Origin: Moniliella sp. 'wahieum'
Taxonomy: Eukaryota; Basidiomycota; Moniliellomycetes; Moniliellales; Moniliellaceae
Reading direction: 5' to 3'
Length of the DNA stretch: 64,000 bases
NCBI GenBank assembly: GCA_003971905.1
Contig: RSEE01000008.1
Coordinates: 744,001-808,000, forward strand
Part shown: positions 5,033 to 45,569 of the stretch, in pieces
How positions within the stretch are numbered: the stretch's first letter is position 1
How the letters are laid out: the number at the start of each line of letters is the position of its first letter
Notes under the pieces: model-generated
Seen by the model: only the letters and a program-made list of their open reading frames with translations
Told to the model about the DNA's origin: nothing
Database searches by the model: none
Made by a program: the position numbers and the translations under genes

Positions 5033-6046
5033 GTGTGGTGGTGAAGGTGTAAGGTAAAAGGCCCGACGAAACGGCGGGACCGATTCGTCTTGCTTTCAAT
5101 TGCTTGCACCTTGCTCTTTGCACTTTGCTTTCGAACATTACACCTTGCGCCTTGCTCTTTCTTTCATTTTCCCACTCTTCCCTCTTTCCTACACTTTGCT
5201 CGCCCCGCCCACGACGGTCAATCCACTCTGGTGCTTTGCTACGGACGAGATGTTTCTCTCAACCAACGTTTTACGGTTTTTCTTTTTTACCCTCACTCGC
5301 ATCTCCTGCGTCACGGATCCCGGTTTTTTTTCTTTATATCTAAGCCCATCTCTTCGTGTGTTGCACCTACCGAGTAGACTGCTTCTCTCTTTACGTTTCC
5401 ACCCAACGTTCCTTTCCTCTGGGCATGCCATTGCAGAAGGAATTTGCTGTATGCGATGCCCGCATGTCTGTCTCTCCCCCTCTCTCGATCGGCTGGTCCA
5501 GCGTACTGTAGGCACAGGGAGGACACACGGTCATTTCCCATACGTCGTTTTGTTGTAGTGCATAAACAGGATAGATCTGGGATCCGTCTGCGCACGACAG
5601 CGCATATGAGAACCCAGAGGGCAGTTGTGTTGGCCGCGCGTCTGGGTGTGCGCGTTCCAGGGGAGGCTTTGCACATGCAACCTTGATCTCACAATAAAAG
5701 GGCCGGTGGTCCAGCCCTTATAAAGTATTCTCCTCTCGTCTTCCCGGCACCCCCAAACTGCCGAACTTGTAGGACGTCCACCGTTCCATCTTTTGCTGGT
5801 GAACGCGGGGGTAACGCGTTTATTCTCTCCGCAAAAAAGGTGGAATCAGTGGCATCAACATCACATGCATCACACTGTGTGTGTCACGTGCTGGTCGTCA
5901 CACATCACGTGTCACATGTCACATCCGCTCTGTCATGTGTCACGTGACAGGATGGTGCACTGCCCTTACGTAAGTATGCGCGTCGTGTTGATCCAATGGG
6001 ACGCGTCGAGGCAACGAAGCGGTGGACGACCACAACAGTTGCCTCC
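5033..6046. other. Intergenic region, DAD2 promoter
   Basis: No gene is supported. The first half is T/C-rich, as expected for a fungal 3' or 5' untranslated region. The last 170 bases before the DAD2 start hold a dense set of CACGTG and CATGTG words listed separately. Confidence 0.5.
5884..5946. promoter_or_regulatory. E-box-like heptad cluster upstream of DAD2
   Basis: Read in steps of 7 from 5,884 the sequence is TCACGTG, CTGGTCG, TCACACA, TCACGTG, TCACATG, TCACATC, CGCTCTG, TCATGTG, TCACGTG. CACGTG therefore occurs three times and CATGTG or CACATG twice, all in one 7-bp register, ending 100 bp before the DAD2 ATG. CACGTG is the core site of bHLH factors such as Cbf1 and Pho4 in fungi. 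Which factor binds here is unknown. Confidence 0.55.
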
Positions 6047-11030: not shown

Positions 11031-11085
11031 CGTTCTGACGTTCCTGGTCGGCGCCAACTTCTAGATGGCCGTCACGGGCATGTTG

Positions 11086-11124
11086 AACGTTGAAGTTGAA
11101 CGTTCAGTTGAACGTTGAACGTTT
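11086..11124. repeat. Heptad palindrome array, AACGTT type
   Basis: Units AACGTTG, AAGTTG, AACGTTC, AGTTG, AACGTTG and AACGTTT follow each other. Four keep the palindrome AACGTT; two are shortened. Confidence 0.75.
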
Positions 11125-11270: not shown

Positions 11271-11287
11271 ATCGATGATCGATGATC
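11271..11287. repeat. Heptad palindrome array, ATCGATG x2
   Basis: ATCGATG occurs twice in tandem followed by ATC. The same word occurs in tandem or near-tandem at 2,015-2,030, 51,172 and about 60,768. Confidence 0.75.
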
Positions 11288-11310
11288 CCAGCGTTCGAGG
11301 TTCATATTTC

Positions 11311-11331
11311 AACGTTCAACGTTCAACGTTG
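11311..11331. repeat. Heptad palindrome array, AACGTTC x3
   Basis: AACGTTC, AACGTTC, AACGTTG in perfect 7-bp register. Confidence 0.8.
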
Positions 11332-13976: not shown

Positions 13977-15108
13977 GCCCGTCCAGCACCCCTTTTCATG
14001 TCGCTTTGGACGAAGAATCGGCTTGTTCCGGGACCTGCATATGTTGGAGAGGACGAGGCCAACAAGCCTGGTGAAAGGGCGCCGCGAAGCCGGCTCTTCT
14101 TGGGAGTCTGGCTGGTGCTTGCTTCCATGGTTTCCTATTGGGAGCCATTTACTGTCCACGCGGCAAGGATATTCATTCTATGCCATTACTGCCCCTTCCC
14201 CTCCCTCACTACACGCCTTTCCGTAACCTGGGACAGGCGTGGCGACAAAATATGGAGGTCATGCTCTCGAAGACTATGTGTTGTAGGACAATATGCAGGT
14301 GTGATCTTCTTGGCCTCGAGCGTCGCGACAGATGAAGAGTGGCTTGGTCAAAATCATTTTGGCTGCCATCTGGCCTGCCAAGAACGAAACAGCACTGCTC
14401 GAGGGCGGTCGACGTAGCAACTCGAGATGACGCAGAAGAAATGCTCCACATCAAGCCATGGGCCACAGGGCAGCACAGCTTGGACGGTCCTGCGAGTGCC
14501 GGATCCCACACGGCAGGCGTAGTCTCCATGAGCGACAGCCATTCCCGGATGCTCTGGCCCATCGGCGACCACCTTAGCCAGTCGCTCTGGAGGCCCTCCA
14601 TGCCGGTTGGCCTTAATTTATGCTTGCTGTACAGATTTGCCCAGGTTTGCCCCAAGAGCTGGTTACTAGTTACTGCGGATTGCGCTGAGCTGTCGCATGT
14701 TTTTGGCGTGACAGGTGAGGCGGAGGCGGTGACCGGTGACCCGGGGTGCGCCCTGGTGCCGACGCAGAAGTTTTTGGCTGCAGGGGGAGACACCGCCCCT
14801 GTGCACCTGCCGACAGCCAATCAGCGTCGGGGCTGCGGGCCCGCACAGCGCCAGCCAACCCGGCGGCTCCTGGCCGTAATGGAGCAGGGCCCTCGTGCCT
14901 GTGGCGAGAAGCCCGTACTGGTCCAGTACAAGCCCAAGAGAGGCCACGCCCCCTGGCTGCCCCACAGATGCGTGCTGCCGAGCACGCAACGGTAGAGACT
15001 GGGCCAAGCCAAACCCAACAAGCACAAAGATGCGCAGCTTTTTTCCCATCCCATCCCATCCCATCCGCATCCGCATCCGCATCCCCACCCCAACGGCCCT
15101 CCTCCGCT
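13977..15108. other. Intergenic, RPS13 3' region and Par32-like promoter
   Basis: There are 200-residue open frames on both strands at 14.2-15.0 kb, but they overlap each other and show no motif, so I do not call a gene. A hexamer run (CCCATC then GCATCC units) lies at about 15,044-15,085, just upstream of the next start. An ACCGGTG heptad pair sits near 14,730. Confidence 0.5.
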
Positions 15109-16722: not shown

Positions 16723-17717
16723 CTACGGCACATCCTGCCGAAGTGGTACACCTACTAATGTTCTCGTCCCATACTCTACAGACAAGCAAGATGCACACAT
16801 TGGTGACCGGTGAAGACCCAGGAGGATTGTGGTGTAACGGAGTGCAGTTCATTGACTAGAAGGGGAATGGAACGTACCAGTTTGGATTGTTCTTGATCTC
16901 TGCGAAGTGGGAGTAAGGAGCGGTAGAGGTCTGAGCAAAACAAGCGGGGGGTTAGCATGATCGCCATTGATTGTTGATTCAGCAACACAACGGGATAGGC
17001 TGGGAAGTCTCAGACTTCCAAGGAAGGTCTGTGGGCCGTCACAGGGCAAGGCAGGCTTCAACTCAAAGCCAATGCAAACGAGCCAACTCAATGGGCCGCT
17101 GGAGACGCATAACTGGGTTCGTACACGCCTCCACCCCGCACCCAAAGGCCAGAGGGGATGGACACCATCGACGTGCCAACGACACGAGCCCTCTTGGCCA
17201 AGAGGAGCACTATTGCCCCCGCCACAGAGGGCGGCTTGCGTGCCCTACAGTGGAAACTGCGAATTTGGTTGGATACCAGGGATATCGATCATCGACAACC
17301 AGCCTGCAGAATGATGGGTTGAACGTACCAGTCAGTCTTGACAAGATGTGGTTCAACCGGAACGGCAAATGTTGGCGGCGGAAGCAAGTTGGTGCTAGCA
17401 GAAGCAAACAACCCATGTCAGCAGCCGTGAATCAGGGCAAGGCAAAGGATCAGACAACGAGGTGCTGGCAAGCACCGAAGAAACAATCGTGCCGAAGCAC
17501 GTAGCGCCGACGAGACGCCGCCTTGTCGTTTCGGCATGGTCATATAGGCCGGGGCAAGGAAGATGAAGACATCATGAAGGGGATGACAATGGGCACAAAC
17601 ATACCTTAAGACGAAGGCGAAAATGGGGGTGGAGAAATCCGGTGATCGGCAGTCGGGAATACAGCAAGACTTGAGCAAATGGGGGGATGGGCGAAGAGAC
17701 GATGTAGAAGTGGACAC
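16723..17717 (-). CDS. Cryptic multi-exon gene, product unknown
   Basis: No long frame, but four short segments look like exons on the minus strand. Segment a is 17,605-17,717 (starts MSTSTSSLRPSPH, donor GTATGT). Segment b is 17,329-17,394 (acceptor TGCTAG, ends ..PHLVKTDW, donor GTACGT). Segment c is 16,878-16,930 (acceptor GCTCAG, reads TSTAPYSHFAEIKNNPNW, donor GTACGT). Segment d is 16,723-16,775 (acceptor CTGTAG, reads EYGTRTLVGVPLRQDVP then stop). Segments c and d join in phase; b to c is off by one base, which one lost base would explain. The result would be a protein of about 95 residues, possibly organellar. I do not recognise it. RNA evidence would decide. Confidence 0.35.
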
Positions 17718-18178
17718 ATCAGACGGATACGGGGGCCTTTATACCAAACCCCAAAGCAGGGAGAAAAAAAAAGTGCATGAGGCCATGCCTCCACATCAAC
17801 TGTTACATAAGCGACTGTTCCGCTGGGACTGCCTGTTCCGCCGGCTATCACCTCCCTAAGGCCTTAGCTAAGGCCTTAGGCCTCATGCCAATAACCCTAA
17901 CATTAACCCAACCCTTAGGCAGGTCTGGCTCAGGCCTATGGCCCTGAGGGCTTGTGGCATGTGACAGGTACACGACTTTCAGTAATGTAACAGTCGGGGG
18001 TATAGACGAGGGAGACCAAGGTCCTGTCAGGGACGGGGAAAATGGCAAGATCGTTCGTACGAGGAAACAGAAGGCATCGGGCAGAGAGCAGCAAAAAGGA
18101 AAAGGAAGAGCGAGAAACACAAGATGCAGAATTGGAAATTGGAGCTAGCTTTTAGTCATTCGGTGGCAAGTACTAGCC
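17718..18178. other. Intergenic with AGGCCTTAG palindromes
   Basis: No gene. At 17,862-17,884 the sequence repeats AAGGCCTTAG around an AGCT core, one of the AGGCCT-type palindrome clusters. Confidence 0.5.
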
Positions 18179-18288
18179 ACGGCAACCAGACGCAGGAAGA
18201 CATCAAATCCATTCCAAATAACACGAAAGATGGAATAGAGATTGTGGGCTTTGGGAAGAGAGAATGTAAAAAAACAAAGAAAACACGC

Positions 18289-18997
18289 CTACCAAACGAT
18301 GCCAGTGTCGAAGTACATAACCCTGTTGTTCTGAGGGACACTGTAGCCCGCCTCGACAGTTTCGTGCCCTGCCGAAATAGAGGGTAAGGGAAGAGAGTCA
18401 GTATACGCGACGTGCCACGGGGAGAAATATAGGGCACTTACCTGAGTTGCTAAGCTGCCAACTGTAATAACCGTCGCTGTTGGGGCCTTCCGTGTTTCCC
18501 GTAAAAGAAATGTGGTTGCGATAGAAGGGTGCGGATGGGGCGTCAGGGTTGCCGCTACCGCTGAGGAAGAAAAATTGGTCACTGTAGTGGGCGTCACCGC
18601 TGTTCTTGACACAGGGTGCCGCATCAAAGTGAGTTGTGGTGCCATTGTTATTCGTGCGGGCCCGAATGCACTTCCCGGGATGGTCCGCACTCTCAAAGTA
18701 CCCAGTTGCACTGAAGCCTCCTCCTTCAGCAAAGCTCATAATGTTCGACGCGTGCATGTAGAACTTCTCGGCACGAGCCGGCGCACCATTTGCACCCTGT
18801 TGGGAAAGCACTTGATACCCAAGCGTGTCACGGAAGCCATTGAAGGAGACTGTGTGGTTCACCGAGTTGTTGTCGGTCAGCAGCAAGCCGGCGGGGCCCC
18901 ATGTGGCGGTATATTCGTCACGGGGATTGAAGGACGTAGGCGCGGCCCAGACGAGTGCAGCGGTGGTAGCAACAGCGGCGAATAGGATGCTCTTCAT
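18289..18997 (-). CDS. Small secreted protein, family copy 1
   Basis: Predicted 211-residue secreted protein. Exon 1 (18,442-18,997) starts with a clear signal peptide, MKSILFAAVATTAALVWAAP. The mature part has VNHTVSFNGFRDTLGYQVLS and GAPARAEKF, then a segment with the only two cysteines, HPGKCIRART and THFDAAPC, likely one disulphide. An aromatic/acidic QFFFLSGSG stretch follows. NHT and NGT are potential N-glycosylation sites. A 73-nt intron (18,369-18,441) follows SNSG. Exon 2 (18,289-18,368) adds GHETVEAGYSVPQNNRVMYF and ends DTGIVW. A TATA-like TTTAAATATA lies at 19,146-19,155. I do not recognise the family. Signal peptide, size and multigene arrangement fit an effector or cell-surface protein, which is inference. 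Near-identical to the copy at 24,264-25,007. Confidence 0.8.
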
Positions 18998-19145
18998 TGT
19001 CGAGTGCCGATGTGGAACAAAAGGCAAAAACGGGGTGTGAGGAGAGTAGGTGGTGGGTAGTGGTGGGTGCGAGAGCGGAGTGATGGCCCCAATGAGTTGG
19101 TGATGGAGGGATGGAGAGAAGCTGCGCAGATTCAAAAGGGGCCCC

Positions 19146-19155
19146 TTTAAATATA
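19146..19155 (-). promoter_or_regulatory. TATA-like element of secreted protein copy 1
   Basis: TATATTTAAA on the minus strand, about 150 bp before the ATG. The same element is at the matching place in the other arm. Confidence 0.5.
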
Positions 19156-19518
19156 CCTGTCATTCAGGCGTTTTCCCACCCGCCACATCATGTAAGTAGA
19201 CCGACGCTATGCGCGTGAGAATGTAGGTAGATCCCCGAGCGGCACCCATTGCCAACCGCCCTCAGGCCTCAGGCTGAGGCCTTACGGCTTACGGCGTCCG
19301 AGGGTTAGGGGCCTAAGGCCTAAAAGGGGTAACTCGTAACGCGTGCCGCGTAAGACCGAAAGCCTCAACGCGCCTGGACGAGATTGGGAGACCTTCCGGG
19401 CGCAGATGGGGCAGTGGCCTGCTGTGGCTCCTGCGGCATTTGGGCTGCTGTGGCCCGCCACAGATTGTGCACCTGCGTACATAATGTTGCCGGACTTCCG
19501 CACCGCGTGTCCTCAATG

Positions 19519-19539
19519 ATTAATGATTAATGATTAACG
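19519..19539. repeat. Heptad palindrome array, ATTAAT type, at the repeat boundary
   Basis: ATTAATG, ATTAATG, ATTAACG in register, beginning four bases beyond the inner end of the left inverted-repeat arm. Confidence 0.8.
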
Positions 19540-19548
19540 AGGAGACCA

Positions 19549-19588
19549 CCGGGCCTACGGCCCGGTCAGCTGGGGCTTCGCCCCAGCT
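19549..19588. repeat. Double hairpin
   Basis: Two perfect stem-loops lie three bases apart. 19,549-19,565 has a 7-bp stem (CCGGGCC) with loop TAC. 19,568-19,588 has a 9-bp stem (AGCTGGGGC) with loop TTC. They lie just inside the inner boundary of the left inverted-repeat arm. GC-rich double hairpins of this form are known as mobile elements in some fungal mitochondrial DNAs; here the context is nuclear. Confidence 0.6.
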
Positions 19589-19603
19589 TGGTGCTGCGTC
19601 GCA

Positions 19604-19737
19604 GCCGCCACCGTAGCCACCGTTCCCCCGTCGCCACCTTAGCCACCGTTCCCCCGGTCCACCATTGCCACTTTAGCCACCGTTCCCCCGGTCCCCCGTC
19701 GCCACCTTAGCCACCGTTCCCCCCTTCGCCACCGTAG
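19604..19737. repeat. Minisatellite, GCCACC-TTAGCCACCGTTCCCCC type
   Basis: About five imperfect copies of a unit of roughly 26 bp built from GCCACC, TTAGCCACC and GTTCCCCC(GTC). It lies immediately after the double hairpin. No coding function is apparent. Confidence 0.75.
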
Positions 19738-20229
19738 TTATAATATCACCGATACGCGCTGGCTGCGGGTGGCTGGGAACGTGGCACCGGTCGGCACGTG
19801 CCTATGACGTAAAAGATGCACGGCGGATCAATTTTGCATATGACATAGAGCACTCAAGAACCGTTTTTCCCCCTGGTTTTGACGACGCGAGGATACTACG
19901 GCACCAAGACGGCGGGCAAGTTGTTTGCGCATTGGAAGGAGTTGGCTACTAAGTCTCAGTGGAAATGGTTCCTCGCTCGTATGTCAACCACGTTCCTCCG
20001 TGTCCACACGCGCTTCCTAGGGTACGGGACCGGATGGCGTGAGCCGGAGGGTCCTGATATCCTGGCGATCCCCCTGGTCCCTTAATCTTGGTGGCGCTTC
20101 CAAGTAACCCCCGCAAGATGAACGGTTCGGTTTAGACGTAGCGTTCCCCCTGTCCCAGCCTTAAGCTCTGTCAATGGAATGCACACAACATAGAGATGAC
20201 TGGCTCCAGACGGCCAAGTGTGGCATGTG

Positions 20230-20250
20230 ATGCATGATGTATGATGCATG
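20230..20250. repeat. Heptad palindrome array, ATGCAT type
   Basis: ATGCATG, ATGTATG, ATGCATG in register, followed by CGCATG. Confidence 0.75.
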
Positions 20251-20463
20251 CGCATGATTCCTGCTGAGCTTGATGATCAATGAGGTCTCAGTCTGAGATC
20301 AGAGACCTGGAGTCCGGATGGTGCTCGAAGCTCGTGGAGGATGCAATCGCACTGGGTACTGATGATCAGTTCTAAGCCAGCCAGCAACGCCTACAGAGGA
20401 GCATCAAGCAGCGAGTCGCCACACCATGTGGCGCAAGCTGCAGAACAAGGAAACACAGGAGTG

Positions 20464-20477
20464 ACTAGTGACTAGTG
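20464..20477. repeat. Heptad palindrome array, ACTAGTG x2
   Basis: ACTAGTG twice in tandem, then a decayed ATAGTG unit. Confidence 0.75.
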
Positions 20478-20831
20478 ATAGTGAGGAAACAACTGAACTC
20501 CTATAGGAGAAGGCTGGGGCGCTCAGGCCTCAGCCTGAGGAGGAACTGAGGCTTGAAGGGGCGTTGGCCAAAGCACAAGCCACTCGGCGGCTCAGCTGAT
20601 GAGCTTGAAGGTCCTCGCGCTCCGGATCGTCGGAGACCCGCTATATACGTGGTGTCTCAAACGGCCGTGCGGAAGACTGTCGACATAAGTATCAGTCTAT
20701 TCGCAGTGCAGCCGGGCCGTATAGGCCCGATGGCCTCCTAGTACATACTATACACGCACACCACTTTGCTGTGGGGCCCCAAAGGCTGTGGAGGAGGCAT
20801 CTGTGACCGATCTGACCAGATGACTTCGATG

Positions 20832-20859
20832 ACTAGTGACTAGTAACTAATGACTATAG
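20832..20859. repeat. Heptad palindrome array, ACTAGT type, decaying
   Basis: ACTAGTG, ACTAGTA, ACTAATG, ACTATAG in 7-bp register. The register persists while the palindrome erodes. Confidence 0.75.
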
Positions 20860-21437
20860 ATGACAATCACAGTGTGACTATAATAGTGGGACTAGTGCCG
20901 GTATAGGGCATATTAATTGGTACAATTGTGGCCGAGACCAGCCAACAAACAAAATATGTCGGCGTCGAGGCCGGACGTTCAGTAGCATCCATACATCAAC
21001 GTCAAATGAGTTGAACGAAGAATGCTAAGTACAAGTGCTGAGTGCTCAGTGAGTGCTTGCCGAGTGCGCTGAGTACTACTCAACTGAGTACTCAGACTGC
21101 TGTGGCTGAGTACATTCGGTACCTATACGTTCTCGATAGTGCATGTGGTCCCTTGGGAGCCAACATTTTCAATTGCATAACGGAAGCGGTAGTCCGGCAA
21201 CAAGCGTATAAGTGCTGCTGGGCCCCTGGTCTCCATCGGACCCTGTCGCCGATTCGCCGGCGTCACTACTGAGAATCTGAGCTGAGCCTCAGCACTCAAA
21301 CGCTTCAATAAAACACTTCAATAGCCGTGGCCATCTAAGCTCCTGGCCATCATCCCCCTCCACCATTACACCTCCCTCTTTTCTTCCCAACTCACAGTTC
21401 CACTCCCCCTCCATCAACGCATCACTACCACACAAAC

Positions 21438-22204
21438 ATGAAGGCCATCCTTCTCGCCGTTACCGCCACCACAGCTGCGCTGGTTTCGGCCGCGCCTACG
21501 CACTTCAAGCGGCAAGACAACGTCTGGGGCCCCGGGGGCTTACTACTGAGTGACCCAACCAACACGGTAAACCACACGGTCTCCTTCAATGGCTTCCGGG
21601 ACTCACTCGGGTACCAAGTCCTGTCTCAACAAGGTGCAGATGGCGCGCCGGCCCGTGCCGAACAGTTTAACTTCAAAACTGTGAGTGCATGGAAGTCTGG
21701 TGAATCTTCTGATACTTCTGTCATCAATGGCGTGGGTATTTTGGAAAGTGCCGACCATGCTGGCCGGTGCATTCGGGCTCGCACGCTCACCGGCTCTACC
21801 ACCCACTTTGACGCTGCACCTTGTCTTTGGGACGGTGTTGATGACCCCAACGGTTACAGTGCACAAATGTTCTTCCTCCAAGGAAAAACCTTCCCCCCGG
21901 ATGAGGCCGTCTACTACAATCACAACACGCTTACGTTTACGGGTACTACCAATGCGGCTGGGCCAAGCGATTACCATTTCCAGCTCAGTAACTCTGGTAC
22001 GCCCCCACACCCCCTCCTTTTCCTTTCGATCTCTCATCTCTGAGTGAACCTCACACCGCATGTATATACATACATACATGTAATACTGAGTATACTGACT
22101 CTCACCTGCTACCCACATTTGCAGGACACGAGACCGTCGAAGCGGGCAAAGATGTCACTCCGAGCGGCTCAACCCTTACGTTCGACGCCATTCTCAGTTT
22201 CTAA
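21438..22204 (+). CDS. Small secreted protein, family copy 3 (diverged)
   Basis: Two exons, 21,438-21,996 and 22,125-22,204, give a 212-residue protein. The intron (21,997-22,124) starts GTACGC and ends TTTGCAG at the same codon position (SNS-G-HETVEAG) as in the other two copies. Signal peptide MKAILLAVTATTAALVSAAP is followed by a possible Lys-Arg processing site (HFKRQD). It shares VNHTVSFNGFRDSLGYQVLS, GAPARAEQF, GRCIRART and THFDAAPC with the arms' copies, but differs strongly in the middle and in the C-terminal tail (DVTPSGSTLTFDAILSF). The mid-point of the inverted repeat falls within this gene. It is older than the arm duplication. Confidence 0.8.
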
Positions 22205-23056
22205 CCGTATCGACCTCGTTCCTCTTGCAAATAACCCTGCTGATCTCTTCCACTGGTTTTCTTTTTTTGCTGCGTAATGCGCCATGTTCATCATTGATGA
22301 TGTGACTTTTACCACCACGCCCAACAACAAACCGACCCCTTCTTTTTTGGTGCATCTACCGCTGTTGTGACACCACAGCTACCGAGAACAGCCTGTGGGT
22401 CCTTGACACCCTCTTTTGAGGAGGGGGAGGGCTGAATACAGCCGCAAGGACGGCAATGTGTATTCTCCTCTGGCCTCCTTCTTTCTGTGCATATTTCCTT
22501 CGGAACTGTGCATTTCCCTCGGAACAACTCCCCTTGTTTGCCCTTCTCGACTCTTCCAGCTTAACTAGGTCCATTACACATTAACCGTAAAATCCACGTA
22601 CTGTTGCCAAACCTCTCTCATATGCGTATAGAGGATCCGTGGACACTTTGCATGCCGGGATCGGGCAGTCAGCGCCTGGCCATCATACATCAGCGCTCAG
22701 CAGCTCCCACAAGCAATCCTCAACCTTTAAAGGATCTGACCTCAGACGGGTCATGTGTAAAATCAGTCCTTCGAACGATATCTTCGAAGAGAAAGGGGAT
22801 ATATGTGTTACGGCGGGGGCAATGTCCCACTGGCGGCTTGTTACATGTTCGCAGCGACGATATATGGGGCGGGGTTACCGGGGCTACCGCGGCTATTGGA
22901 GTCATGTGGAACCCTCCCCTCCCTTTTGGCGACTGTTATGTAGTCACTATGTAGTCACGGGCTAGTCAGCACAGGGCTTCTTTTCCTTTCAGATCCCAGG
23001 ATCTCGTTGAATATTGACGCGGACGAGATATATATTGACGCGGATCTCCTGACTAT

Positions 23057-23098
23057 AGGCCTTAGGCCTTAGGCCTTACTGGTTACCGGTTACCGGTT
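23057..23098. repeat. Heterotypic heptad array, AGGCCT then ACCGGT
   Basis: Six uninterrupted 7-bp units: AGGCCTT three times, ACTGGTT, then ACCGGTT twice. The palindrome changes from AGGCCT to ACCGGT while spacing and the T linker stay constant. Confidence 0.85.
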
Positions 23099-23122
23099 AT
23101 CGAGATTATCATGGCTCGTGAT

Positions 23123-23150
23123 GTACGTGACGCGTGATGCATGATGATCG
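23123..23150. repeat. Heterotypic heptad array, ACGCGT/ATGCAT
   Basis: GTACGTG, ACGCGTG, ATGCATG, ATGATCG in register; four different words sharing a G linker or ending. Confidence 0.7.
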
Positions 23151-23212
23151 ACGAGACCTTCCAACTCCGCCGACGCGCTCCACACTTTCGTGCGACTATG
23201 TGACCGCGGAGT

Positions 23213-23240
23213 GCCGGTGACCGGTGACCCGTGACCCGTG
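23213..23240. repeat. Heptad array, ACCGGTG type
   Basis: GCCGGTG, ACCGGTG, ACCCGTG, ACCCGTG in register. Confidence 0.75.
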
Positions 23241-24105
23241 ACCGTCAACACGCCACGTTGTTCGTTCGCGCGCAAGGTCGTTCGCTTGGGTTTAAAATTT
23301 AACCGTTCCGATTCCGATGGTTTACATGTTCACATGGTCGCAATATGAACTTCACCCCTCTGAGGCTAAGCCCCGCGCGGAGGCTCAGCAGGGGCTCAAT
23401 GTTCAACTGTACTGAACGTTCAACGTACTCAACTGAGCAGCAGGACTGGTGAAGCGCTGAGCACACCTAGCGACGGTGCTGAGGGTGCCGAGGCGCTGAA
23501 GCCTGCCCCGGCGCCAAGTCTCGTTGAGCGCCGTGCCATGTGCCGGACTATACGATGGGCAACATGTATGTATCATCCCCCCATCGGCTGTGTGGCATGT
23601 GTGGGGAGAGCGGGGCTTGCGAATGGGATGGCAGACTTGGATGCGTGCGCTCCGCACTGCCGTTCGAGACAAGGTGCAGGCACCCCCCGATCCTACGCGC
23701 GAGGGGCTTCAAGTTTCACCCTTGGCTGCCTGGAGCCAGAGTCTTTGAGGACACGCGGTGCGGAAGTCCGGCAACATTATGTACGCAGGTGCACAATCTG
23801 TGGCGGGCCACAGCAGCCCAAATGCCGCAGGAGCCACAGCAGGCCACTGCCCCATCTGCGCCCGGAAGGTCTCCCAATCTCGTCCAGGCGCGTTGAGGCT
23901 TTCGGTCTTACGCGGCACGCGTTACGAGTTACCCCTTTTAGGCCTTAGGCCCCTAACCCTCGGACGCCGTAAGCCGTAAGGCCTCAGCCTGAGGCCTGAG
24001 GGCGGTTGGCAATGGGTGCCGCTCGGGGATCTACCTACATTCTCACGCGCATAGCGTCGGTCTACTTACATGATGTGGCGGGTGGGAAAACGCCTGAATG
24101 ACAGG

Positions 24106-24115
24106 TATATTTAAA
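24106..24115 (+). promoter_or_regulatory. TATA-like element of secreted protein copy 2
   Basis: TATATTTAAA, about 150 bp before the ATG, identical in position to the left-arm element. Confidence 0.5.
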
Positions 24116-24263
24116 GGGGCCCCTTTTGAATCTGCGCAGCTTCTCTCCATCCCTCCATCACCAACTCATTGGGGCCATCACTCCGCTCTCGCACCCACCA
24201 CTACCCACCACCTACTCTCCTCACACCCCGTTTTTGCCTTTTGTTCCACATCGGCACTCGACA

Positions 24264-25007
24264 ATGAAGAGCATCCTATTCGCCGCTGTTGCTACCACCG
24301 CTGCACTCGTCTGGGCCGCGCCTACGTCCTTCAATCCCCGTGACGAATATACCGCCACATGGGGCCCCGCCGGCTTGCTGCTGACCGACAACAACTCGGT
24401 GAACCACACAGTCTCCTTCAATGGCTTCCGTGACACGCTTGGGTATCAAGTGCTTTCCCAACAGGGTGCAAATGGTGCGCCGGCTCGTGCCGAGAAGTTC
24501 TACATGCACGCGTCGAACATTATGAGCTTTGCTGAAGGAGGAGGCTTCAGTGCAACTGGGTACTTTGAGAGTGCGGACCATCCCGGGAAGTGCATTCGGG
24601 CCCGCACGAATAACAATGGCACCACAACTCACTTTGATGCGGCACCCTGTGTCAAGAACAGCGGTGACGCCCACTACAGTGACCAATTTTTCTTCCTCAG
24701 CGGTAGCGGCAACCCTGACGCCCCATCCGCACCCTTCTATCGCAACCACATTTCTTTTACGGGAAACACGGAAGGCCCCAACAACGACGGTTCTGTTTAC
24801 AATTGGCAACTTAGCAACTCAGGTAGGTGCCCTATATTTCTCCCCCCGTTGCACATCGCCTATATAAATGACCCACACCACAACGGGTATACTGACTCTC
24901 TTATTCCCTTACCCTCTATTTCGGCAGGGCACGAAACTGTCGAGGCGGGCTATAGTGTCCCTCAGAGCAACAGGGTTATGTACTTCGACACTGGCATCGT
25001 TTGGTAG
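24264..25007 (+). CDS. Small secreted protein, family copy 2
   Basis: Exons 24,264-24,822 and 24,928-25,007 give a 212-residue protein. It is identical to copy 1 through the signal peptide and nearly all of exon 1. The difference is the end of exon 1, NNDGSVYNWQ here against NSDGYYSWQ, plus Ser for Asn in VPQSNRVMYF. The intron is 105 nt. Two cysteines (GKCIRA, DAAPC) and the NHT/NGT sequons are kept. The near-identity of promoter and exon 1, with divergence in intron and 3' flank, suggests recent duplication or ongoing gene conversion between the arms. Confidence 0.8.
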   Translation: MKSILFAAVATTAALVWAAPTSFNPRDEYTATWGPAGLLLTDNNSVNHTVSFNGFRDTLGYQVLSQQGANGAPARAEKFYMHASNIMSFAEGGGFSATGYFESADHPGKCIRARTNNNGTTTHFDAAPCVKNSGDAHYSDQFFFLSGSGNPDAPSAPFYRNHISFTGNTEGPNNDGSVYNWQLSNSGRCPIFLPPLHIAYINDPHHNGYTDSLIPLPSISAGHETVEAGYSVPQSNRVMYFDTGIVW

Positions 25008-25115
25008 GCGCGTTTTCTTCGTTTTTTTACATTCTCTCTTCCGAAAGCCCAATCTCTGTTCCATCCTTCGTGTTATTTGGAACGGATTTGATGCCTGTCT
25101 TTGTCTGGTTGCCGT

Positions 25116-26202
25116 CTTAAATGCGCAAACCATTTCAATTCAATCTACGTGCGACTGCCATTGATGCACCACACCTTTTGGGGCCGGGGCATCGCCCCCT
25201 TAAACTTCTTGTCTTCTATACTTTCGGCAAGTGGAATGATGAGATTTAGACTAGATGGGGGGATTAGAGCAGAGGAAGCAGAGGTGGGGAAGCGGATGGG
25301 GCAGCCTAAGGCTTTATGATCAGTCCCCTCCATTGGTTAGTCCAGTATCCTCAATGCCTTCATCCATTTTGGCATGTTTCAGCCGCAGACGGGAACCTGC
25401 GTGTACCATATATGGTGGAGCCGTTGTAAAGAGAATATCAGTGACTTTTGCTCCCATTCAGCAGGTATCTTCCATAACGCAGCCTGTAGTGTGCCTTTTT
25501 GGGGGGTGCGAGGCAGGCCCAGGAGCCTCCTGTTGTACCATAGGGCCGGGGGTTGGCTCACGCTCGAGAGAGATCAGGCTGATGAGGACGTATCGTGGGG
25601 AAGAAGCAAGAAGAGAGGACATGGTGCGAAGTGGAAGGAACAGGGAAGGAGCGAGACGCTCGAGACGAAGAAATTGGAAATGGGAGCGAGATCAGCCAAA
25701 TTATGACAGATAATGCACGAAATAATGCACAAGGAAGGGGATGTGGAGGTGCGATCATAACGTGGTGGCTCTGCGGCAGCGCCACAGTGCAACTCTCCGG
25801 AGAAGCGATTGTCTCCACGCCGCAGCAGCTACTATAGCAACCCATTGAACTCCCGACGTCTATAAACGGACACATAGGATGTGCATGCGGGGAGGCGAAA
25901 CTAGTTTTATATGCGAGCAATGAAGACAGTCTCACAGAAATTGCCCCGCACAAACTGCATAACTCTCGGATTCTCAGATTTCGAATCTGGGATCCCGCAA
26001 AGCCATAAATCAAACCCTAGTTAAAATGCTGCGGCGCGGCGGAAAATAAACATACACTGACCTTGTGCGATACTGGCCAAAAACAATAGGGCACACTGCT
26101 ACAGAGCCTTGACCTTTCGCTTGGCCGGCGACGGCGAAGCAGGCCGCTATCCCTCCTTGGTCCCGCACGCGATTTTGGACACCACCAGCCAAGACTAGTT
26201 AA
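25116..26202. other. Intergenic, no gene seen
   Basis: Open frames of up to 152 residues on both strands overlap each other and show no motif. A 6-bp hairpin (CAGATT-TCG-AATCTG) at 25,975-25,989 is the only structured feature noted. Confidence 0.5.
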
Positions 26203-26999: not shown

Positions 27000-27844
27000 T
27001 TGGCGTTGCTGCTGCGTAAGTGGTAGACCACCATTGGGTCAAATGACTGTTCTCGGATCGTTTGCGGCCTGGTGGTTGGATGCCTTCTCTCTTCTTTCAT
27101 TTCCCTTCTCACCATGCACCCCCCCAAAAACCGATGCCTGTCTGCCATCTCCGTTTCGGATCAGGTTCGCCTTACTCCATGGCCCTGGGCTGCCATGCGA
27201 GATGGGTGAAGTTTTGCGTTTTAGTTGGAGGACTTGTCCCATTGCCCGGTCACGGGACACAGCTTTCTCTCACTGTTCCTGGCCCACCCGTATGCCCATC
27301 TCTTTACCTACCATTTTCCATCGCTTCGGACATAGTCTGGTAGCTATTTATCTTTTTGCCAGCGGAAGGGTGGAAATGTATTTCGAGAAACCCGCAGGTT
27401 GGGGCCTGAACGTTTGGGTAATCTCCATCGGCTTCTTTCCCTTTGGCATTATGGTCGGTTTCTTGGCTCGCTTTGCCAATGCGTCTACCATCGCCGCATC
27501 GCTTGGCCATTCTCTTTCCACATACCACCGCCTTGATGAAGTTTCTCTCGCCTTCATAGCACACTTGCCCCTTGGTATCTCAGTAACATATTGGCAAGCG
27601 CCCTGGTCATTTTGCTCTACACTGCCAGATCAGTGGGATGATGACAGGCAGTGGCATGTGACAGGTGGCCTCCGATGACATGTGACAACAGGTGTCATGG
27701 CGATGCGAACAAACCTTGACGATAAGAAATCCAGAGGCGGTAGAACAGAAAACGACGAACAGGCCGAGAGCCGGAAAGGAACCTGATCCTTCGGGCGCCC
27801 TTCGTGTTACAACATGGACTCGTGTAAAATAGTTGAGGCGGTAA
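27000..27844. other. Intergenic, between convergent genes
   Basis: T-rich RPL13 3' region, then mixed sequence without a recognisable frame. Several CATGTGACA words lie at 27,650-27,690, similar to the E-box-like words upstream of DAD2. Confidence 0.5.
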
Positions 27845-28799
27845 TCAGCGCTCGACCAAGCCAACAGATTCATGTTCGGTCTTGGGTGGGCTCTTGGACA
27901 TATTAAGCAAAGAGAGATAGATGGTCCAAAACACCTGTTACCCGTCCCGTCAGTCTTTGTCGCTGCATTCCACAATTGTAGCAAGATTTGGACTTAGTAC
28001 TTACACCACAAGTCGATACAAACGGCACCCGTACTTGAGGGGCATGAAGCGGAAGTTTATCAGCTGGACCAGTGGCCATACTTTCCAATTTGACAGTAAT
28101 GTCTTCGAGTACATCTGTCCACCGCCCACCATCACCACACCCACATACTAGGTTAGCATCCGCTTCGTCACTGATGTCAACCTTAGAGAACGTACGGTAC
28201 GGTACTTCTCAGTAACTTCTGCCTGAGAGCGGCCCTCCAGGATAGAGATGATGCCAATGAAAGCAGCAATGCCAAAGGGTGAACTGCATCGGAAGAAGAG
28301 GTTTGCGGGATTCCACATGCGGAGTCAGAGGCGAGAAGGACGTACGGGGGAAAGGGGTGGCGTACAATAATCCTTGATCAACCGCCACACGACGCAGCAA
28401 GAGAGGAAACCGCACTTGCCCGGCTTTGACCACAGGAAAGCGCCGCTCCAAAAACTTATTCCACATGTCCAGTGGAGGCGCATGATCACGCCAAAACTGA
28501 GGAAACGGAGAGAGCGCATCAAATCATAGCTTGGAACTAACGCCAGAGAGGAAGGGTGGTGTAGTAATGAGGAGCCCACCCTTGGCCCGATGGCTCGGTG
28601 ACGGGACGAGGAGAGACGGTGTTGCCAGAGGCCTCTTTGTCGGCAGAGGGCTGATGCCCAGAATGCTTGGCATCGTACAACTCAAAGCCCTGGGCGCAAG
28701 CATCGGCGAGCATGCTAAGCGCGCCGTTGGCGACAGCGAGGGTGATCCAAGGACGGCGGTCAAAGGAACGGGCGTAGAAGGTGGAAAGACGGCGAACAT
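27845..28799 (-). CDS. Mpv17/PMP22-family membrane protein
   Basis: Small multi-pass protein of the Mpv17/PMP22 family (yeast Sym1, peroxisomal PMP22), inner mitochondrial or peroxisomal membrane. The segments in order on the minus strand are RRPWITLAVANGALSMLADA; DLMRSLRFLSFGVIM; WNKFLERRFPVV then RRVAVDQGLLYA; SPFGIAAFIGIISILEGRSQ; NWKVWPLVQLINFRFMPL; VPFVSTCG; and, after an intron, VFWTIYLSLLN with a stop at 27,845. The NWxxWPxxQxxNFxxMPL and VDQ motifs are diagnostic. At least three introns are likely (donors GTACGT near 28,345, near 28,190, and GTAAGT near 28,010). The frame needs single extra bases at about 28,791 (GCC to GCCC), 28,484 (G) and 28,043. Start ATG at 28,797-28,799. A run of 19 G lies 17 bp upstream. 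Confidence 0.75.
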
Positions 28800-28834: not shown

Positions 28835-31056
28835 TCAAATGCACAGCGCTGTTGTATATAGGTGTTGGTGCGATTGGGCTGAACACCTCAGCGTGCGCTG
28901 AGAGGATCCTCAGTGGTGGAGTATCAAGTGTGCGATTGTGAAAGGTGGGTAGGACGGGGTGATCGGTCTAGTATGGGCGAAGCAAGAGGAGGGATCGTGT
29001 GGCTTTCGTTTAATGAACACGTTCATAACAGAATGGACAGAGCACAGACCACTTGCCTCAGCGGCTCTATCTCGCAAACCATAATTTACTGTCGGCCGGT
29101 GAGTGTGGTGATCGGTGAGAATTGATCGAAGCAAAGAGAAGGGGCCGAATCGGGGTTGGAAGCTGGGACGTCACGCGCGTCACGACAGCACGGGACCACT
29201 ACCACGCCAACATTCAATGCACGCTCCACGAAGGCCATCAGGGCATGCCCGATAGGTATGGGTAGGGAGGGACAGGGATAATCGACAATGCTAGTTACTG
29301 AGACCACCGTGCTGAGACTTTTGGACACGCCCCATGCCGTGCGCTCAGCCTGACAGCCTCAGCCCGACGGCGCCTCAGCCTGAGAGGCGCATCGGACACC
29401 AAAGCCGAGTGATTGAGTCCACCTGGCTGGCGAATTCTCCTGGGTCGGAACCAACGACGGATGAAAGCCCCGCGCCGGCCCAGTTTCTGGCTAACCAACC
29501 CCCCGTGTCAGGTCCCACAAGTCCACAAGTCAACATCTCCAAGCCATATGACCTATTATCCTCAAGGTGAATCCAACAGTGAGGGGTCTCGAGTCGATAT
29601 GGATTGGACACGGGCCTAGAGGGGTCGTATATGGATCACAGGTCTAGGATGAATGGTTCGGCGGTTCGAGAGACGCGCCGCTGCCGGCAGAGTTTTTGAC
29701 AAATGCGTCATTGGGTGCAGTGATGGTGACCCACAGATGACCGCAACCTGACACTACGGCCTCTGAGGATCACACTGATCCTCGACGGTGATGCAATCGC
29801 ACTTTGGGCGGTGGTTGTGGTTAAGTCAACCAACAGCACCAGCCGAGAGACATCCCGAGCAAGTCGCCGCTGGGCCAGTGGCCGTGGAACTGTAAGACGG
29901 AAGTGAGAAAACGGCGGAGCTCCTAGGCTTGAGGATGGACAGAAGGGATTTTTGTCCAAACGCATGAGCCACCCTACGGCACACACATGCGTGGCCGAGA
30001 TGCACATATCGTTCTCACTTATTTGACGGTGGGGACATATTGGAATACGAGTGCTATTTCCGCGGCCGGCTGGGATACCAGAGCATACACCTATTATAAC
30101 TTCCGTCTTATCCTCCTGACCACCTGATACGCTTCTCATCCGCCAAGGTACGCCGAACTTCACACAGGACTATACCCCTTCTGGTCTGAGATAGGAGATG
30201 GCCAACGAGTGCTACATCAAAGCTATTGTCTGATGTCTGATCAGATAGCCGTCATTGATTCTTTAGTGCAGACAGCCAACTTGAGGCGAAAGCGGTCGGA
30301 AACGGTCGAGAGTGGGGGTTGCTCCCTCCTTCGTCGACAGTGGAGGAGAGAGAGCCAGGGTATATCACGACCATGGGCAAAAGCTATCAATCTTTAAGAA
30401 TGGAAGACGCCCAGTGTGACACCATTGACCCTGTGGCCCAAACCGTGACAGAAGGATGGTGAGTGGTGAGTGTGTTTTGTCTGCCGTCCAAAGGCCTGAC
30501 CTCAGGGGTGTTCCCGATTGAAGAATAGCATCCGATACCACTTTTTGCTCGTAGCGCGCAATCGATAGCCACAGTTAATCAAGGAGGCCCCGGTGTCGGA
30601 AAAGGGGCTGCTCGTGAAATTTGACCGCAGTTTCCCGCGGGCCTGCTTAGCGCTTAGCGCTTCTGAGCGCCCAATCGCTTGCGGCCGATGGGCTGGCGCG
30701 GGGGGGCACTGGGACGCTCCCGCGGTCAGCGGAACGCCGGGCTGAAATTTTGCGTAGGGTTGCAGACTTACACGCGGCTCGACACTGGTGCGGTGCCCCG
30801 CTTTTTTTTATGCCACGTTCCCGCGTCGCCGCCTAGTCCCCATCAGCGCGGAGGCTCAGCGCCCAGCCTCGCACGGGGCCAGCGTCAGGTGGTGCCCAGC
30901 CACAGCGACGCGCGGCTGGGCGATTGCTCTGCGCTGCGTTTCTCTTCTCTCCTCTCCCCACCACCGCCACCCCCCTCCGCCCTCACCGTCCCCTCGCCTC
31001 TTCTTCAGAGCACGCCCTCGAGACGTCTGCTCTGCCCTAGAGTGTAAAAACAAAAA
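28835..31056. other. Intergenic, no gene seen
   Basis: Open frames up to about 150 residues, none recognisable. CTCAG/CTGAG-rich patches at 29.34-29.40 kb and an AGCGCTT heptad pair at 30,649. The last 350 bases are the PAB1 promoter and leader. Confidence 0.5.
30649..30662. repeat. Heptad palindrome array, AGCGCTT x2
   Basis: Same unit and copy number as at 1,353-1,366, about 29 kb away. Confidence 0.75.
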
Positions 31057-33146: not shown

Positions 33147-33761
33147 GTGCGTCGTGGCTTCACCTATGTACTTGCCCCTTGACTTTTTTTAGGCCTTAGG
33201 GCGGGTTTGGGCCTTGGTAACATCTTCCATCCAGTCCTCGGCCTGTGATGGTAGTGTTGTGATGGTCTGCTGTCTCTTTCTCTTATCTTTCCTGGCACGG
33301 TGAGCGTTTGAACGATCGCGGCTTGCTCTTTTGACTGTTGTATCGAGACGGGCGGGAGGCAGGGTGGAATGGGCCAGAGTAGATTCTAGCTATGCCGCGC
33401 GTACGGACAGGGATGCGCAGGCGACTTGGTGACTCCACGGGTGTTCGGTGGGGGGAGGGTGGGAGCGAAGGCAGGTGCAAGGAACGCGCGACGGACAGCG
33501 GCTGAGGCTCAACACTCAAAGCTCCTGCGCGGCGGCCATCGGCGGCGGCCAGACAGGCGCTGTGCTGCCCGGGTGCCTACGCGCCAACCAACGCAGGGGC
33601 TCCGCACGGGGGCAGTGCTGTGGCGCTTACGTAGAGTGGCCGCGAGATAGATCGCATGGCCGCGGGGTCACTCGTACGCCTTTGCCTGCATCCCCGCCCC
33701 CCCCCCACGCGACTACCTCTACCACCGCCACCACCGCTACCACCGCCACCACCCCCTTGCC
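33147..33761. other. Intergenic between PAB1 and VAC8
   Basis: No gene. A CCACCGCCAC-type repeat lies at about 33,715-33,750, immediately before the VAC8 start, similar to the low-complexity leader of the RhoGAP gene. Confidence 0.5.
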
Positions 33762-39471: not shown

Positions 39472-39991
39472 ATGGAATCAGTTACTCATCCACCTTATCT
39501 ACGTCATACGCGCCATGTTTATGGAACGCAGCCTGTATACTCTGGGGAGACGCGTTCTGAAATCTGTCGCGAGGAGCAAACCATACCAGAGACTTATCAT
39601 GATGAGATGCTTGATCGTTATCGAAGCCACAAATACGTCCGCTGCTTTGCCAAGCCCGTGCCAGACACCCAGGCACTCAGTACTCAAATGTCAAGCGGGG
39701 TGCCTATGCTTGACGTCAAAAAGCCACAGGCAAAAAACGATGGAGTGGAGCGTCTCGTCTCCTTCGAGGTATGTGCGATCAGCGGATGAGCGAGACGCGC
39801 TATGAGTGTGTACCCAACATGACAGCTACTGTTGATCCTTCATCCGTCCATTACAGACCCGTCATAGACCAGCCCGCTTGCAAATTGTGTCCCGTTCTTC
39901 TTGGTTGGAGTTAGATACCGCTGCACGTGGCCTTTCGCCAGCAGATCTGCCCAAATTACCTCACGCAGCAAAAGAAAAATCCAGATGGTGA
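39472..39991 (+). CDS. Small two-exon hypothetical protein
   Basis: Exon 1 (39,472-39,768, 99 codons) starts MESVTHPPYLRHTRHVYGTQ and ends VERLVSFE before a GTATGT donor. The intron 39,769-39,856 ends TTACAG. Exon 2 (39,857-39,991) reads TRHRPARLQIVSRSSWLELD, then GLSPADLPKLPHAAKEKSRW and stop. Donor, acceptor and phase agree, giving 143 residues without any frame repair. No signal peptide, membrane segment or known motif. A third exon is possible because a GTGAAG donor-like site overlaps the stop. Product unknown. Confidence 0.5.
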
Positions 39992-40792
39992 AGATCGAAA
40001 CCGCAAGAATCGGGGGGGGAAAGATCTTCAAAAGATCTTGAGCGGGCCTCGGCCCTCAAATTCTGCAAGGTCCACGGATCCTTCAGGCGCGGAACGTGCG
40101 GGGGATGTGTGGAGCAGTCACTAGCTAGCGTGAAGAAGCTCTTGACTAGTCAAGCTAGTCATGGGTCCTTGAAGTGATTGGCACTACTCACAACGTCGTC
40201 ACTGCCGTCACAAGCGTAGCACCACAGTATGGAAACAAGACCGGGAGAGCAGAAACGTCGAGCCAGCGTGGTGTCCTCCGACGGAGGGTGCAGCGTTCTT
40301 ACCACCGGGCGAAAAAAGCCAACGTGCCCTTTCGGGGTTGAACGTACGTTGAACGTTCAAGTTATCAGGTGGTTCTGATCGATGGCCATGCATCATGCAT
40401 CATGCATCATGCATCATGTCCAGGTCAGGTTGAAAGTTGAAAGCAGCAAAGCGTCGCTGGCCACTCGCCGTTGCAAAATGCGCCAGCGGCCGCTGCGTGG
40501 GCAGCTACTCACGTGACCACCATTACATTCGCCCAGTAGCTTCCATCGCTACCGAACCCAAACTGCTTCCCCAGGCTGGCATGAGTTCTGGCTGCTGCTC
40601 ACCGCTGGTTGCTTGCCGCCCATGTCGGCCTGATTCCACAGCAAAAGAACTCCCAGGGCGGCAGGCTGCCAATCTAAAGAGTGAAGTTAAGTAAACAAAC
40701 TGAGCAGCGAACATGATGATTGATTTTTTGTGCGAATAAGTTGTGCTATAGAGATACAGATGCAACCAGAGTCCCGTGAAATAACGAGTGCT
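39992..40792. other. Intergenic with palindrome arrays
   Basis: No gene. Contains ACTAGT/GCTAGC clusters at 40,120-40,160, AACGTT words at about 40,340-40,365 and the ATGCAT array at 40,388. The last 100 bases are the HSP78 3' region. Confidence 0.5.
40388..40415. repeat. Heptad palindrome array, ATGCATC x4
   Basis: Four perfect tandem copies of ATGCATC followed by ATGTC. The palindrome ATGCAT recurs every 7 bp. Confidence 0.85.
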
Positions 40793-45094: not shown

Positions 45095-45569
45095 GGCTGG
45101 CTGGGGGGGGAGAGATCGAGGAGCAGAGGCGACGGGGCGGGATCGCTGCGCCCCAGATAGACATGGGCATCAACCATCGACGGCTGCAACCGTTGCTTCC
45201 CAGCCCGCCCGCGGCTGCTTGCTTGCGCCCCGCACGACGCCGCCCAGGCCACCGCACCCCAGGGGCAGTGTGCCTGCACGCTGGGGGTCTGATGCAATTG
45301 CACATTTCAAGAGCTTCACGTTTCAACGTTCAATCATCGGCCAGAGGCTGGCTGGCGCTTGGTTGGTCCTGCGCTAGCTAGCATCCATCATGCAACAGAC
45401 TCCGTACTCACTCAGTGCAGAGGCACGCCACGGCCCTGTGGCACATTCCCCCTGGAGGGTTACGAGCACATTTATATCTTGTAGGTGGGCAAGCACAAAG
45501 ATACCGTGTGTGCGAGGAATGCCAATCGACGAGGGCGGGTCAGGACCGAAGCAGGCAACGTGAGGCAAG

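Follow-up and report, generated by a model that had tools for sequence, protein, structure and literature searches.

The genome of the basidiomycete Moniliella sp. 'wahieum' carries many short arrays in which a trinucleotide TNA is directly repeated around a four-base palindrome with a dominant period of 7 bp, and the event that creates such a unit is very likely a 7-bp insertion templated by the flank of its target. We propose, with confidence slightly short of even, that the arrays are the record of recurrent insertion aimed at TNA by a break, a snap-back and a joining step. The analysis started from a stretch of 64,000 nucleotides (C8:744001-808000, referred to as the window) of an assembly of 69.5 Mb in 223 contigs.

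The reading frames of the window include Hsp104/ClpB-like, RRM/MLLE (PABP-like), and Pil1-like ones, and judged from these frames the DNA is fungal. For the Pil1-like protein, 8000 candidates were scored, and the best match bearing a species name was Tilletiaria anomala (Exobasidiomycetes), with 62% identity over 47% of the query; two other matches were closer. Two tRNA genes of approximately 95 bases each, perhaps with introns, lie on the minus strand (57514-57609 and 60394-60487). The main sample was non-random and comprised 264 kb, namely the window and 20 stretches of 10 kb from contigs C1-C5. Fetched loci were added to it for the repeat-pair test that does not presuppose TNA, the four-class test, and the counts of C/G exchanges and of TNNA and TNNNA joints; these tests count both copies of L023/L030 and several members of one repeat family, while the near-identical L036, L039, L040, and L042-L045 were left out. 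Parts of two haplotypes appear to have been assembled. L023 and L030 (contig C57) aligned at 91% over approximately 5 kb, and window positions 17,001-26,000 had a partner on contig C23 at 87-91%; we infer allelism for these paired stretches and refer to them as putative alleles. For L013 (500-2700), no second full copy was found in the assembly. Inverted copies of a 1.1-kb stretch with 98.8% identity (18402-19519 and 23742-24864) flank a dense cluster of units in the window, and C23 likewise matches these copies in both orientations.

Between two copies of the same TNA joint in the 264 kb, the four intervening bases were palindromic in 261 of 467 cases, compared with 5 of 174 for ANT, 26 of 467 for CNG, and 24 of 622 for GNC joints (3-6%). 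Palindromic TNA units numbered 8.3 on average and 16 at most in 40 order-3 Markov simulations. When N was equal at both joints, palindromes made up 110 of 187 (TGA-TGA) and 100 of 179 (TCA-TCA) cases; joint pairs with complementary N gave 13 of 42 and 10 of 58. The constant part is a directly repeated T-N-A in which N is identical in the two copies. An origin by inverted duplication (fold-back dimer) was rejected because same-N joints far exceed complementary-N joints.

An earlier note on this DNA had described the arrays as A-N4-T palindromic hexamers in a strict 7-bp period. The hexamers were found at this period, with the named word exact at 15 of the 17 starts listed; at 23,123 and 23,213 the word begins 7 bases later, and the spacer at 40,388, given as G, is C. 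The excess is real and tied to palindromes at T-N-A, being absent at A-N-T, C-N-G, and G-N-C, but the grammar had to be redrawn, as the constant element is T-N-A and the period is dominant rather than absolute. In the window, a palindromic hexamer bounded by A was followed by the same word 26 times at spacing 7, compared with 3 times or fewer at each of the other spacings between 4 and 13, and no C-, G-, or T-bounded pairs occurred there at spacing 7. In the 264 kb, tandem arrays numbered 13, 52, 85, and 15 at periods of 5, 6, 7, and 8, respectively, and 58 of the 85 period-7 arrays were self-complementary with at most one mismatch. The dominance is not absolute because four-base joints TNNA (palindromic in 15 of 92; other joints 4 of 82, 12 of 151, and 14 of 216) and five-base joints TNNNA (12 of 43; other joints 4 of 50, 11 of 125, and 9 of 149) were raised as well. 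Among the indels between L023 and L030 are 9-bp ones with the units GCGTCTCAC and ACGCGTTAC, in which a CGCG palindrome is combined with the five-base joints TCTCA and TTACA. At many other insert lengths, the bases enclosed by TNA copies likewise had a mildly raised two-base symmetry (22 of 161 at 10 and 22 of 121 at 14), and six- and eight-base palindromes between TNA copies were slightly raised (11 of 233 and 5 of 156). A strict two-base rule predicts neither; part of the extra symmetry may come from neighbouring arrays that share a word.

Over the whole assembly, AAGCTTGAAGCTTGAAGCTT occurred 1038 times and its letter-reversed control 0 times, and TGACCGGTGACCGGTGA, the two-unit TGA array of CCGG, occurred 396 times compared with 4. 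The earlier count of at least ten of the sixteen four-base palindromes was right in that many occur, and the fuller count in the 264 kb is 15, with only TATA absent; the two-unit TGA array of TATA was found once in the whole genome. The sample held 214 loci, of which 178 were single, 27 double, 7 triple, and 2 quadruple units. Extrapolated from this non-random 264 kb, the assembly would hold tens of thousands of loci, in the order of 50,000. The units and arrays of the window are listed in Table 1.

Table 1. TNA units and arrays in the window, numbered from its first base. Class L, the left outer two bases match the second half of the palindrome; class R, the right outer two bases match the first half; both, both sides match; none, no flank match.
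Positions	Unit or array	Class	Remark
1358-1367	TTA-GCGC-TTA	L	1 unit
2017-2026	TGA-TCGA-TGA	both	
5912-5921	TCA-CATG-TCA	both	
11084-11093	TGA-ACGT-TGA	L	
11109-11118	TGA-ACGT-TGA	both	
11276-11285	TGA-TCGA-TGA	both	
11309-11325	(TCA-ACGT)x2-TCA	R	
14663-14672	TTA-CTAG-TTA	R	
14730-14739	TGA-CCGG-TGA	both	
16804-16813	TGA-CCGG-TGA	L	
19262-19271	TCA-GGCC-TCA	both	
19314-19323	TAA-GGCC-TAA	L	
19517-19533	(TGA-TTAA)x2-TGA	both	adjoins interspersed element beginning near 19537
20228-20237	TGA-TGCA-TGA	R	
20462-20478	(TGA-CTAG)x2-TGA	L	
20523-20532	TCA-GGCC-TCA	none	
20830-20839	TGA-CTAG-TGA	R	
22690-22699	TCA-GCGC-TCA	R	
23008-23017	TGA-ATAT-TGA	none	
23062-23078	(TTA-GGCC)x2-TTA	L	featured array
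23083-23099	(TTA-CCGG)x2-TTA	L	featured array
23128-23144	TGA-CGCG-TGA-TGCA-TGA		one array with two words
23218-23227	TGA-CCGG-TGA	both	
23293-23302	TAA-AATT-TAA	L	
23938-23947	TTA-GGCC-TTA	R	
23990-23999	TGA-GGCC-TGA	both	
27676-27685	TGA-CATG-TGA	R	
27994-28003	TTA-GTAC-TTA	L	
30615-30624	TGA-AATT-TGA	none	
30647-30656	TTA-GCGC-TTA	both	
33189-33198	TTA-GGCC-TTA	R	at end of RRM + MLLE-domain ORF
39677-39686	TCA-GTAC-TCA	L	
40393-40416	(TCA-TGCA)x3-TCA	both	
45323-45332	TCA-ACGT-TCA	none	
47279-47309	(TGA-AGCT)x4-TGA	L	
50690-50699	TCA-GCGC-TCA	L	
50790-50799	TGA-CATG-TGA	L	
50824-50833	TGA-CCGG-TGA	both	
50935-50944	TGA-AGCT-TGA	none	
50946-50976	TGA-CTAG-(TGA-AGCT)x3-TGA		one array with two words
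51097-51106	TGA-AGCT-TGA	none	
51173-51182	TCA-TCGA-TCA	both	
56685-56694	TGA-CATG-TGA	both	
56896-56919	(TGA-TGCA)x3-TGA	R	
57326-57335	TCA-GGCC-TCA	none	
57823-57832	TCA-GATC-TCA	L	
58968-58977	TGA-GATC-TGA	R	
59174-59183	TAA-CTAG-TAA	none	
60580-60589	TGA-GTAC-TGA	R	
60641-60650	TTA-CTAG-TTA		CTAG array, joint switches from TTA to TCA
60655-60664	TCA-CTAG-TCA		same CTAG array as 60641-60650
60719-60728	TGA-GCGC-TGA	none	
60770-60779	TCA-TCGA-TCA	L	

The palindrome is templated by two bases on one side of TNA. Among the 178 single units, the left flank matched a palindrome half in 80 and the right flank in 103, with at least one side matching in 146 (left only 43, right only 66, both 37, and neither 32). 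Where exactly one side matched in full, the opposite side had 0 matching bases in 62 units and 1 in 47, compared with approximately 3:2 expected if that side is unrelated. The event can be written as XY-TNA-ZZ becoming XY-TNA-ZZ zz'-TNA-ZZ (lower case, reverse complement of the pair) and, in mirror form, XY-TNA-y'x' XY-TNA-ZZ. In the four-class test, 704 units comprised 128 right-templated, 105 left-templated, and 128 templated on both sides, which we read as mostly units within arrays, and 44 were palindromic with neither side matching. Double-templated products numbered 10 of 704, and plain 7-bp duplications at TNA numbered 28 of 704, no more than at other joints (43 of 264, 43 of 568, and 85 of 789). 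A model in which the two ends of a 7-nt overhang snap back independently was rejected, as its prediction disagrees with the plain and double-templated counts set against those of the left- and right-templated classes.

The same rule emerged from a test that did not presuppose TNA and searched for repeat pairs (S-gap-S) with a gap complementary to one end of the repeat. For 5-base repeats with a gap of 2, complementary gaps were observed in 367 and 346 of 2555 pairs (approximately 173 expected each), and the consensus of these repeats was TNAnn or nnTNA. For 4-base repeats with a gap of 3, which likewise make a 7-bp period, 331 and 284 of 4394 pairs were complementary (approximately 77 expected). 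No clear excess was observed in this test at gaps outside the 7-bp period, which differs from hAT-type hairpin footprints, where P nucleotides of variable length stand beside a duplication of fixed length. In the 109 one-sided units, no other position within approximately 20 bases was notable by eye. The two bases past the templating pair matched above chance, in 43 and 52 of the 109, and part of the unit set may thus be whole 7-bp duplications.

The insertion process is recent, and units vary between copies. In a repeat family of at least 3.2 kb (L035-L046; 12 fetched copies with pieces 81-99.8% identical), 11 copies have the empty site GGGGA-TNA-CGAATG (3 with TGA and 8 with TCA). The remaining copy, L041, reads GGGGA-TCA-CGCG-TCA-CGAATG, which is the predicted right-templated product, and polarised by parsimony this is one de novo event. 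A second site of the family holds CTAG units, one in L037, two in 8 copies, and three in L035, L038, and L041, with one unit of L035 mutated. A stretch of approximately 190 bp, found in 8 of the 12 copies, contains nearly the reverse complement of a GC-rich hairpin sequence in the window (19550-19590).

Length differences of this size also stand out between putative alleles. The alignment of L023 and L030 contained 79 indels, including 9 of 7 bp, 2 of 6 bp, 2 of 8 bp, and 2 of 14 bp. In three paired stretches compared in both directions, 14 of 102 palindromic units were precisely missing from the partner, 32 were present, and 56 were undecidable, with a unit common to two partners counted twice. 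We read some of the corresponding empty cases at C-N-G (12) and G-N-C (11) as these arrays seen in a shifted frame. AGGCCTT occurs three times in the featured array of the window and twice in that of the putative allele L049. Approximately 0.5 kb away, CA-TTA-ACCG in the window corresponds to CA-TTA-ACGT-TTA-ACCG in L049, an unpolarised difference with a one-base mismatch just upstream. The arrays are thus present in a second assembled copy of the DNA as well as in individual copies of a repeat family. A 39-bp insertion in L030 (522-560) has 11-bp inverted ends and a TAC duplication, and the partner stretch lacks it and reads TGC; this was set aside as a different kind of event.

From the regularities of the units, we infer a break, a snap-back, a joining step, and the enzyme itself. 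A putative TNA-specific enzyme would make a staggered break baring TNA and the two adjoining bases (5 nt), and fill-in would duplicate the five exposed bases. A 3' end finishing in TNA would then snap back, with its A pairing with the T over a one-base loop N, and copy the only two template bases exposed. Joining of the extended end to the other end would add 5 + 2 = 7 bp. A break, fill-in, snap-back, and joining in this order would account for the length of exactly 7 bp, for templating from one side, for the direct copies of TNA, and for a dependence on the templating pair. As each event would leave one more TNA with the same neighbours, the site could be hit again, and such a self-renewed target would give both homogeneous arrays and arrays that change their word; slippage may add further units. 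We regard the mechanism as drawn as tentative, at or somewhat below the confidence given to the arrays as its record.

Several counts bear on these steps. Among 400 templating pairs, AA, AT, and TA were seen 5 times compared with 51 expected, whereas TT (13 compared with 17.9) was near normal, and GC (13 compared with 34.7) and GT (9 compared with 19.6) were low, so base pairing matters without being the whole rule. The ratio of 1.67 for AG is inflated because the counts include L001, L003, and L005, which were fetched with the AGCT word. C/G exchanges at the N of T-N-A numbered 12 beside 369 unchanged, compared with 58 beside 6510 elsewhere (p ~0.0004), and with stricter flanks 6 of 220 compared with 32 of 4408 (p ~0.009), although the events are few; a raised exchange is expected if the TNA loop opens on either strand. 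Further results count against the mechanism. If the snap-back were optional, plain 5-bp duplications should be left behind, and TNA-N2-TNA showed no excess in the 264 kb (111 compared with 126 for A-N-T); in addition, the 32 single units matching neither flank are left over.

Target duplication and inverted bases at the junction are each known from other processes. A cut-and-paste DNA transposon that duplicates a TNA target would, on excision, leave footprints of the form TNA-[two bases of each end]-TNA. The available text of PMC12477816 calls TNA duplications 'classic' for Harbinger, that of PMC4482050 gives them for NuwaII, in the context C-TNA-G and with two basidiomycetes among the hosts, and that of PMC5873905 describes short palindromic P-nucleotide insertions in Ac/Ds footprints in yeasts. 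The 3-bp TNA duplication of the units agrees with the TNA (or TWA) target duplication of PIF/Harbinger footprints. We nevertheless consider this origin unlikely, as the palindrome tracks the flank of the present site in 15 words and shows no fixed terminus. PMC1925063 describes Stowaway footprints that consist of terminal fragments. Inverted repeats lying 40-900 bp apart with TNA at their outer ends were sought in the 264 kb, which gave none with exact 10-bp repeats and 3 with 12-bp repeats and one mismatch (other joints 0-4), and in none of 14 candidates that combined inverted repeats with a 3-bp duplication was the duplicated triplet TNA. The PF13359 profile (Harbinger, DDE_Tnp_4) had no match in the 69.5 Mb, with matches in 1 of 14 control genomes, and PF13358 (Tc1-type) had no match in the genome while the controls gave matches; RVT_1, in contrast, matched 71 times. 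PF05699 (hAT) and PF18759 (Plavaka) had no match in the genome, and the control genomes were likewise without one. The Ac/Ds footprints in the available text of PMC5873905 vary (28 kinds among 128 revertants), whereas the TNA units are uniform. Footprints of MITEs with TNA duplications were dropped, with no convincing candidate in the 264-kb sample, and a Tc1/mariner footprint is not supported, given 15 flank-derived words in place of the fixed end of an element and the empty PF13358 search. An interspersed element lies directly after the (TGA-TTAA) array of the window (19537-20197) and has about 40 or more further copies, many of which are 97-100% identical from an internal point (19850) to a common right end, and several of which lie approximately 1.1-1.3 kb from reverse-transcriptase matches; it is probably the 3' part of a LINE.

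We hold replication template switching at short quasi-palindromes to be similarly improbable. In this process, as in flap-endonuclease (rad27) mutants, the growing strand would turn back to use itself as a template and then return to copy the site a second time. Palindrome expansion with duplication and quasi-palindrome correction are described for rad27-deletion yeast (PMC5677150), as are small inverted triplications (PMC13334657), and the trait itself, an inverted copy of adjoining bases at the junction, is present in classes L and R. However, template switching expects neither a fixed trinucleotide nor a fixed size, whereas TNA and 7 bp dominate here; rad27-type events vary in size, and the available parts of the two papers contain no T-N-A or 7-bp rule. 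Folding should be no less efficient at C-N-G and G-N-C, which nevertheless were at background. The L/R classes of neighbouring units were uncorrelated (43 same and 41 different), giving no sign of a strand bias, and their TGA/TCA orientation agreed somewhat more often than by chance, in 73 cases compared with 45 (p ~0.013). Slippage of 7-base microsatellites from chance seeds, favoured by hairpins as a 7-base analogue of CNG repeats, would account for arrays that vary by whole units between putative alleles and repeat copies, but we give it very little weight. The 178 single units among the 214 loci are short for slippage, a microsatellite has a single slipped word rather than 15, and chance seeds at C-N-G and G-N-C are present but unexpanded. 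As the L041 insertion arose at a repeat-free site, slippage is refuted as the sole cause. The argument of the earlier note against ordinary slippage, drawn from unrelated words with one grammar, holds. Its suggestion of spaced dimer-binding sites is not supported. Arrays of binding sites for a dimeric protein, kept by selection, would fit the scarcity of units in long reading frames (12 of 214 lie in ORFs of at least 900 nt, compared with 22% of TNA sites, the number inside ORFs being rounded). This avoidance is, however, expected for frame-shifting, stop-bearing insertions, which genes would lose in any case. There is no fixed word, the palindrome is copied from any two bases adjoining TNA, and units vary between putative alleles, so that we find this explanation scarcely credible. 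The evidence points instead in the direction of two other causes named in the earlier note, hairpin-guided copying and a repair or mobile process.

Some words of the arrays also occur in prokaryote and viral collections. For TGACTAGTGACTAGTGACTAGTGA, the viral collection gave 6 stretches and the prokaryote collection at least 93. The heptamer CTAGTGA stands in tandem in many unrelated bacteria (L105-L184), in several places in some genomes, and its hosts include Flavobacteriales, Gemmatimonadaceae, Gastranaerophilales, Omnitrophota, and Exilibacterium. In 80 prokaryote loci and one viral locus (L104), TNA units other than CTAG were palindromic in 48 of 1324 cases (other joints 74 of 2337, 63 of 802, and 50 of 1157), which is background, and the any-palindrome rule was therefore not seen in these loci. 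In the viral stretches L050-L055, palindromic units were mainly the CTAG array itself. In four of them (L051-L053 and L055, related contigs of at most 230 kb), the (TGA-CTAG) array runs into a TGA-TTAA unit. The reversed control AGTGATC was found in at least three tandem copies in 48 viral stretches (L056-L103), several per contig in some, compared with 1 for the TGCA word and 0 for the CCGG word; as the control is commoner, single-word counts in the viral collection prove nothing. The AGTGATC repeats are perhaps a phage binding-site array.

Among the matches listed in the open-access literature, with preprints and subscription papers outside its scope, no title or beginning of an abstract described such insertions. 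Together with the traits of known systems that the units lack, this points to an insertion process that we could not match to a known one. We put at about even the chance that TNA sites gain exactly 7 bp through an enzyme-driven, so far undescribed process of a basidiomycete, in which copying of the triplet is combined with a fold-back over two neighbouring bases. If true, this would be a form of mutation whose target, size, and template all obey strict rules and which restores the target that it uses. Arrays of unrelated words under one grammar would then be accounted for, Moniliella sp. 'wahieum' would have a fast source of polymorphism, and an enzyme that acts at TNA by breaking or remodelling the DNA would be indicated. 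As every product holds a new target, the insertion would behave as a self-propagating 7-bp element without a genome of its own. As the insertion rule specifies which product each site would give, it can be tested directly.

The process shares single traits with several known systems. RAG offers a parallel to the hAT-type hairpin-opening footprints with P nucleotides. As in Ac/Ds footprints of this type, a short direct duplication encloses a few bases complementary to one end, but the P insertions in the available text of PMC5873905 vary and need an excising element, whereas here the two bases adjoining TNA are used. As in the NuwaII group of PIF/Harbinger (PHIS) elements, in the part of PMC4482050 available, TNA is directly duplicated and the target is symmetric about the central N; unlike in that group, the sample holds no TNA-duplicating element, the genome has no PF13359 match, and the four added bases are flank-derived. 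The rad27 template-switch events and small inverted triplications similarly combine a duplication with an inverted copy of neighbouring bases, but the triplications in the available text of PMC13334657 measure 148/160/148 bp, are variable in length, and follow no TNA rule. The viral arrays with CTAG and TTAA units resemble the fungal ones in having two words per array, and the bacterial heptamer repeats, spread over many phyla, share the identical CTAGTGA word and the 7-bp period. Short palindromic repeats are also known as (A)n/(T)n repeats in Fusarium and as LIMP in Lobosphaera, and they vary between relatives and among reads, respectively; in the available text of PMC7218506 and PMC4524435, these are fixed words in mitochondria with fewer than 20 copies each, unlike the units described here.
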